37,168 nucleotides of DNA from Cupriavidus gilardii J11. GTDB lineage: Bacteria; Pseudomonadota; Gammaproteobacteria; Burkholderiales; Burkholderiaceae. Position 1 is the first letter of the stretch, and each line of letters opens with the position of its first letter. Location of the stretch: contig NZ_VLJN01000056.1 of the NCBI RefSeq assembly GCF_007829435.1, positions 23,037 to 60,204 on the forward strand, given 5' to 3'. Under the pieces are notes generated by a model, which was given only the letters and a program-made list of their open reading frames with translations, did not search any database and had not been told where the DNA came from. Of this stretch, positions 31,256-35,374 are shown in pieces. Both the position numbers and the translations under genes were made by a program.

Positions 31256-33844
<2,589 letters not shown>

Positions 33845-33924: not shown

Positions 33925-33941
33925 GCTGATGGGTTTGCGGT

Positions 33942-34001
33942 TACTGCCCTCTCCGCCGCCCCTCGCCCGCATGCCGGAGAAGGGCGGGGGAGAGGGCAGT
34001 C
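33942..34001. repeat. REP-like palindromic element, copy E (full length)
   Basis: This is the most complete copy. Outer arms ACTGCCCTCTCC and GGAGAGGGCAGT (with one mismatch region inside) flank an inner CCCGC...GCGGG-like core. It lies directly after the clpB terminator, at the start of the 522-base gap before sbp. Confidence 0.8.
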
Positions 34002-34071
34002 GCGCCCCATTCCACGCTCCACTTGACCTGCATCAAACCGGTCCTTGCCCCAAGTCCGTACCATCAATCCG

Positions 34072-34167
34072 GTCATGAAGCTGCGGGGGCGCTCTTCATG
34101 ACTTGTCTACCCGTTTCCGTATGGAAACTTGGCCCGCGGTGCGCTTGCGCCGCGGGCATTTTCTTTT
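34072..34167 (+). promoter_or_regulatory. Structured leader: three successive hairpins, the last terminator-like, upstream of sbp
   Basis: GTCATGAAG (34072-34080) pairs with CTTCATGAC (34094-34102). GTTTCC (34113-34118) pairs with GGAAAC (34123-34128). GCCCGCGG (34132-34139) pairs with CCGCGGGC (34150-34157), followed by ATTTTCTTTT. The array ends 200 bases before the sbp start. It could be an attenuator for the sulfate genes or a free small RNA. I do not recognise a known riboswitch. Confidence 0.5.
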
Positions 34168-34279
34168 GGGCGACGGCTTGATGCCTGGCCTTATGCGTAA
34201 AACGGTGCTGGATCGGCGAAATCATTCGTTTGCCGAGCAAGGGGCCGCTGATAGTGTGAGCTCTCGCCGCCGTATTGGC

Positions 34280-34307
34280 GGGGGGGGGGGGGGGGGGGGG
34301 GGGGGGG
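34280..34307. repeat. Homopolymer tract of 28 G
   Basis: Twenty-eight consecutive G lie 59 bases before the sbp start codon. Nothing else in the window comes near this length. It is either a slippage-prone regulatory tract or an assembly artefact. Confidence 0.9.
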
Positions 34308-34366
34308 CGGTCCCGTCAGATCGAGGTGGAACGGTCCCGCGCCACGATCTGACCGGAGCCAACAGA

Positions 34367-35374
34367 ATGATCCGCAAGCTGGCCATCGCGGCCGCAGTCC
34401 TCGCCATCGCCGGTTTGACCAGCGCCGCCCATGCCAACACCACGCTGCTCAACGTGTCGTACGACCCGACCCGTGAGCTTTACGTCGATATCAATGCCGC
34501 TTTTGCCAAAGCCTGGAAGGCCAGAGGCGGCGACAACGTGACGGTGCGGCAGTCGCACGGCGGTTCCGGCAAGCAGGCGCGCTCGGTGATCGATGGGCTG
34601 GAGGCCGATGTGGTGACGCTGGCGCTCGGCTACGACATCGACGCCATTGCCGAGCGCGGCCTGATCAAGCCGGACTGGCAGAAGCGCCTGCCGCACAACG
34701 CGTCGCCGTACACGTCGACCATCGTGTTCCTGGTGCGCAAGGGCAATCCGAAGAACATCCGCGACTGGAACGACCTCGTCAAGCCCGGCGTGCAGGTCAT
34801 CACGCCGAATCCCAAGACCTCGGGCGGTGCGCGCTGGAACTACCTGGCCGCGTGGGGCTATGCGCTGCGGCAGCCCGGCGGCAACGATGACAAGGCCCGG
34901 CAGTTCGTCGGCCAGTTGCTGAAGAACGTACCGGTGCTGGACTCCGGCGCACGCGGTGCCACCACGACCTTTGTCGAGCGCGGCATTGGCGACGTGCTGA
35001 TCGCGTGGGAGAACGAGGCGCTGCTGGCGATCAAGGAGCTTGGTCCGGACAGGTTCGATATCGTCGCGCCGTCGGTGTCGATCCTCGCGGAGCCGCCGGT
35101 GGCCGTGGTGGACAAGGTCGTCGACAAGCGCGGCACGCGGCGCGTTGCCGAAAGCTATCTGCAATTCCTGTACACCGACGAGGGCCAGGAGATTGCCGCG
35201 AAGAACTACTACCGGCCGATCTCGACCCGTATCGCCGCCAAGTATGCCGGCAGCTTCCCGCAGCTGAAGCTGTTTACCATCGACGAGGCGTTCGGCGGCT
35301 GGGCCAAGGCCCAGAAGACCCACTTTGCCGACGGCGGCACTTTCGACCAGGTGTACCAGCCGGGCCGGCACTAG
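34367..35374 (+). CDS. sbp: Sulfate ABC transporter substrate-binding protein
   Basis: This 335-residue periplasmic protein delivers sulfate (or thiosulfate) to a CysTWA permease, whose genes would lie beyond the right edge. The signal peptide [23 protein letters not shown] is cut near residue 23. The mature protein starts [16 protein letters not shown], as in Sbp/CysP. Ligand-binding blocks include [42 protein letters not shown] and ENEALLA. The ATG at 34367 is used because it gives a proper signal peptide and CGGAG lies upstream. The same frame is open back to 34121 and 34103 through the poly-G tract, which would bury the signal peptide. Confidence 0.96.

Follow-up and report, generated by a model that had tools for sequence, protein, structure and literature searches.

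The run of 28 G that precedes the sulfate-binding protein gene sbp in the draft genome of Cupriavidus gilardii J11 is probably an artefact of sequencing or assembly, in which absence of signal was recorded as G, and at this length it would not be part of the organism's DNA. An assembly fault had been one of two explanations offered when the locus was read from its letters alone (hereafter the sequence-only reading), and it is supported by three observations: blocks of G and C spoil conserved genes elsewhere in the same draft, the relatives examined lack the run, and across the genus long runs of this kind cluster at contig ends. The other explanation, a phase-variable tract, is not supported, given the position of the run 3′ of a conserved -10-like element, its absence from the 34/34 loci of relatives examined and a poly-Gly/Sbp reading frame that is not conserved.

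The G run and the leader of sbp

The window, that is, the whole stretch of 37,168 nucleotides analysed, corresponds to C46:23037-60204 of a 66-contig, 4.88-Mb draft genome. The record holds exactly 28 G between clpB and sbp, followed by 59 bases up to the sbp ATG, precisely as the sequence-only reading had reported (Table 1), and no second G run of at least 7 is present in the window. With a first-order Markov model taken from the window, about 1e-9 runs of at least 28 are expected in 4.88 Mb; the run is therefore not a product of chance, and some process must have made it. It lies at position 57,315 of the 183,126 in contig C46, where the nearer end is 57 kb away, and thus lacks the contig-end location that an artefact might be expected to have. 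In addition, A/T-depleted flanks, looked for at the run as a further sign of an artefact, were not found, positions 34250-34279 and 34308-34366 having ordinary A/T content.

Table 1. Annotated features around the G run, in window coordinates
Feature	Position	Strand	Basis
clpB, gene upstream of sbp	31256..33844	+	TIGR03346, 1418.2 bits, cut-off 1232.1
Conserved block, putatively promoter/regulator (CTTATGC ... ATTCGTT ... GATAGTGT)	34190..34257	+	alignment with 16 relatives
-10-like TAGTGT	34252-34257	+	common to relatives in the 16-relative alignment
GC-rich leader hairpin (core CCGCC 34267-34271 / loop GTATT / GGCGG 34277-34281)	34261..34284	+	stem search
Run of 28 G	34280..34307	+	exact letters; G/C runs of at most 6 upstream of sbp in 34/34 named relatives' loci
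9-bp inverted repeat, GTCAGATCG (34315-34323) / CGATCTGAC (34345-34353)	34315..34353	+	read by eye; region paired in the single-sequence fold
sbp, sulfate ABC transporter substrate-binding protein	34367..35374	+	NF008022, E 4.7e-168; TIGR00971, E 7.5e-156

The NF008022 match confirmed the earlier identification of the downstream gene as that of a sulfate-binding protein. The closest named matches of Sbp are from Cupriavidus, with 90% protein identity, and at the DNA level the closest other genome is 85% identical over 332/393 bases of the locus. Alignment with 16 relatives revealed a conserved block ending in the -10-like element, followed by a leader that varies up to the conserved Shine-Dalgarno region at its end. 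A promoter role for this block is suggested by its conservation and not by mapping, and a sigma-70 consensus scan found no promoter upstream of sbp. Since the run begins 22 bases 3′ of the -10-like element, it belongs to the leader and falls outside the promoter spacer; of the "leader or promoter zone" in which it had been placed, the leader stands and the spacer does not. Counted from where the -10-like element begins, the ATG is reached after 67-114 bases in the relatives and after 117 bases here with the run, or 89 without it (by subtraction).

Comparison of the same gap in relatives, which the sequence-only reading had proposed as a check, went against the tract. It covered 34 named loci, nearly all of them from Cupriavidus and all with a full sbp start; a 35th locus, L096, was left out, its match covering the protein only from residue 28 onwards, and L076 and L082 cover only about 320 bp upstream of sbp. 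Within 400 bp upstream of the gene, the largest run of G or C is 4-6 bases long in 34/34 loci, and none of them holds a G/C run longer than 6 at the orthologous place, as anticipated for an artefact. A G tract retained with varying length was not found among these loci.

The run starts inside the 3′ arm of the GC-rich leader hairpin and is entered through TTGGCGGGG. The best leader stem begins at position 12 in this leader and at positions 17-27 in 24 of the 34 relatives, with differing letters, a raw count that ignores chance; some stem of at least 4 pairs occurs in 33/34 leaders, a count likewise raw and ignoring both chance and relatedness. Further downstream, the GTCAGATCG/CGATCTGAC repeat lies directly 5′ of the Shine-Dalgarno-like GGAG (34355-34358) of sbp; visual inspection of the alignment with 16 relatives did not reveal it in them. 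In single-sequence folds of 34 sbp leaders, the leader start is often paired with the Shine-Dalgarno region. The leader was also considered as a structured regulatory RNA and rejected, only four pairs being predicted and none of them changed on both sides in an alignment of 26 of the 34 leaders, in which the inner hairpin appears misplaced by eye, its stem letters differing among species. Searched against Rfam, 15 related sbp loci yielded no hit that reached the gathering score.

Two further elements were observed between clpB and sbp. A conserved small-RNA-like element (34072-34163, plus strand) ends in a terminator-like hairpin (34132-34157); a search of the 700 bp preceding sbp located it in 27/34 named loci. 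Its predicted structure, from a 24-row alignment, comprises 30 pairs. Both partners have changed in 7 of them, every one belonging to the terminator stem, whereas an invariant TGCGGGGGCGC occupies the tip of the first hairpin. A weak similarity to Rfam NmsRb was recorded (27.9 bits against a gathering score of 52, E 0.045). In addition, a palindromic intergenic repeat of the CCCTCTCC..GGAGAGGG kind occupies 33946-33998, and in other drafts from the genus repeats like it adjoin several long G/C runs. An Rfam mir-1684 hit below gathering (E 2.1e-5) at 33931-34014 was taken as chance.

Blocks of G and C in the draft and across Cupriavidus

Runs of G or C of at least 8 bases occur at 29 places in the draft genome, and 20 stretches were inspected. 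Runs of at least 12 are confined to three places, and the two besides the sbp run both fall within conserved genes. The prmC gene (TIGR03534, 277.6 bits against a cut-off of 199.1) has 15 bases, read as GAG plus G12, in excess of 12/12 relatives (L032, G000:C28:22952-22965). The extra bases keep the reading frame, for which the chance would be one in three if the length were random, and could be a real Glu-Gly4 insertion. In the conserved gene at C13:135530, 38 extra bases around a G21C12 block shift the frame relative to 11/11 relatives; the first 231 residues of this gene gave no NCBIfam model match.

Shorter blocks have similar consequences. In selD, a family assignment that was confirmed on the sequence of a relative, a nearly pure G/C block (G11..C9; L244, G000:C13:17310-17335) is accompanied by a frameshift, with 8 extra bases compared with 4/4 relatives. 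Across 60 bases of this block, a single A/T is found against 11 in the consensus of four relatives, and 18/18 differences from that consensus are changes to G or C. Identity there drops to 0.38-0.69 against 0.78-0.96 in the adjoining 20-base bins; it is also low (0.29-0.49) at query positions 41-80, where A/T is kept. Furthermore, a carbamoyltransferase-like gene (Carbam_trans_N) is broken by a G9..C9 block (L247, G000:C22:26391-26414), for which DNA comparison matched 2/21 genomes, namely the genome itself and one other over 40 bases only. Altogether, gene-damaging blocks of the kind expected of an artefact accompany the sbp run in the same assembly, in the form of the frameshifts at C13:135530 and in selD and of the prmC insert.

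When a close pair is defined as two runs, both at least 8 long and separated by no more than 8, the draft contains three sites with G followed by C and none with C followed by G, and G-then-C is the order that reads fading to 'G' from either side would produce. The sbp run, unlike the selD and C13:135530 blocks, has no C half.

Across the genus, G runs of at least 12 are present in 35/60 Cupriavidus genomes, and runs of at least 18 occur at 29 places in 15/60. At 17 of these 29 places the nearest contig end is no more than 150 bp away, though not at the two in the present genome. Grouped by printed, rounded contig number, 3/22 genomes of at most 10 contigs carry runs of at least 18 versus 12/38 of the others, a modest contrast, and G-then-C pairs are found in 1/22 versus 8/38; C-then-G pairs occur in 4/60 Cupriavidus genomes, the present one not among them. 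Several runs at right-hand contig ends read C. A simple fade model does not predict this. A GGC motif was not enriched in the 10 bases preceding the runs (8/29 long runs, of at least 18, versus 125/330 short ones).

Near-complete genomes are not free of such runs: G049 (L183, L194), G007 and G055 hold G/C runs of 21-32. The runs in G007 (G28, L174) and G055 (C21, L185) are clean and intergenic. No comparable run was found in the 11 best-matching relatives of the former, and among the 9 best-matching relatives of the latter there is one C8 (L306) and none longer. The C21 of G055 sits where similarity to three relatives (97-98% identity) stops, a short distance 5′ of a CIRCE-like TTAGCACTC..GAGTGCTA repeat.

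Origin of the run

In two-channel sequencing chemistry, absent signal is read as G, and lost signal would give template-free strings of G. At the sbp locus, the GC-rich leader hairpin could weaken or stall sequencing-by-synthesis reads in its 3′ arm; on a two-channel instrument, with G unlabelled, a spot without signal would be called G, and the consensus would then hold a string of G until readable sequence returns. In the organism itself, the leader would probably contain GGCGG, the hairpin arm, with no more than a few additional G. What is observed is the run, the hairpin, the absence of the run from the relatives examined and the G/C blocks that damage conserved genes elsewhere in the draft; the instrument type, the fault in the reads and the actual run length are inferred.

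Published precedents agree with parts of this mechanism, as far as the excerpts of the cited papers go. Two-channel instruments leave G unlabelled (PMC11140927, excerpt), and the likeness to the chemistry considered there (NextSeq 2000, MGISEQ-200) is that a G call rests on absent signal; that work differs in dealing with plasmid homopolymers of 6 and 8 bases, against 28-base strings in assemblies here. Among the reported error contexts of Illumina sequencing are inverted repeats and GGCGGG-type motifs (PMC3622629, excerpt), and the sbp run is similar in being entered via TTGGCGGGG within a hairpin's 3′ arm. The errors described in that excerpt are strand-biased miscalls and not long insertions, and GGC is not enriched before the long runs analysed here. 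A literature search at the level of titles and the starts of abstracts found no description of this poly-G pattern in bacterial assemblies.

A real poly-G tract, private to this lineage, lying in the untranslated leader and expanded by slippage from the GGCGG arm without selected function, is the second likeliest explanation, though well behind an artefact; it would vary in length from cell to cell and might form a G-quadruplex. Such a tract would accord with the clean flanks at sbp, with the clean, apparently private runs of 28 and 21 in two near-complete genomes and with the in-frame prmC insert. Some of the same features weigh against an artefact: the run is internal, so that the contig-end pattern is not directly applicable to it; its flanks are clean, it has no C half, and the fade account does not explain a clean resumption of reads after 28 dark cycles; the prmC insert is in frame; and the runs in G007 and G055 suggest that the genus may harbour genuine runs of such length. 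A private tract is opposed by its absence from the 34 relatives' loci examined, by the selD and C13:135530 blocks of the same draft, which can hardly be functional sequence, and by the first-order model, which expects no such run and hence requires slippage expansion.

A function for the run is harder to reconcile with the locus. To our knowledge, nutrient-uptake genes such as sbp are not usual targets of phase variation, and a switch of sbp, in which length changes under selection would alter transcription or translation, is unsupported and very improbable. In its favour, poly-G promoter tracts do switch in Treponema pallidum (tprL, 7-11 G; PMC7864442, excerpt), and the sbp run ends 59 bases 5′ of the start codon. 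Homopolymers have been tied to phase variation in another betaproteobacterium, Bordetella pertussis (PMC1891110, excerpt). The resemblance to tprL and tp0126 of T. pallidum consists of a G tract upstream of a gene; in the excerpt of that study, the tprL tract ends just upstream of a mapped transcription start and that of tp0126 is situated between -35 and -10, whereas the sbp run lies 3′ of the inferred -10, has no counterpart in relatives (0/34 loci keep the tract) and far exceeds the 7-11 G of tprL (PMC7864442). With the promoter located from conservation, the run neither lies between its elements nor overlaps them, and its beginning 22 bases 3′ of the -10-like element would leave promoter spacing unchanged; the earlier suggestion that length changes alter this spacing was accordingly dropped, and a promoter-spacing switch was ruled out. 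No paper joining Cupriavidus, a homopolymeric tract and phase variation was found in the literature searched. The further idea that a real tract and the leader hairpin form a slippery, possibly G-quadruplex element varying sulfate uptake from cell to cell in this lineage only is similarly improbable; if true, a housekeeping nutrient gene would be switched by a tract over double the size of the one at tprL.

Translation of the run as an N-terminal poly-Gly extension of Sbp is the least credible of these possibilities. The frame is indeed open from TTG 34103 through the run into Sbp, as the sequence-only reading had stated, and it is likewise open for 62-136 codons in 11/34 relatives (96 here). 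It is not conserved, however, since a stop lies upstream of the ATG after 5 open codons in 14/34 relatives and after at most 32 in 23/34, and the fusion was ruled out on this ground. Furthermore, the frame runs across the terminator-like hairpin 34132-34157, and the extension would bury the conserved Sbp N-terminus, the conserved protein beginning at ATG 34367.

Consequences for Cupriavidus genomes

The G/C blocks of this draft corrupt conserved genes (selD, the second C13 gene and perhaps prmC) and call for caution in its use. Scans for phase variation based on homopolymer length would consequently return false positives in this draft and, given the contig-end pattern, in other Cupriavidus drafts as well. 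Should the tract be real, it would represent an unusually long natural poly-G in the leader of a nutrient gene.
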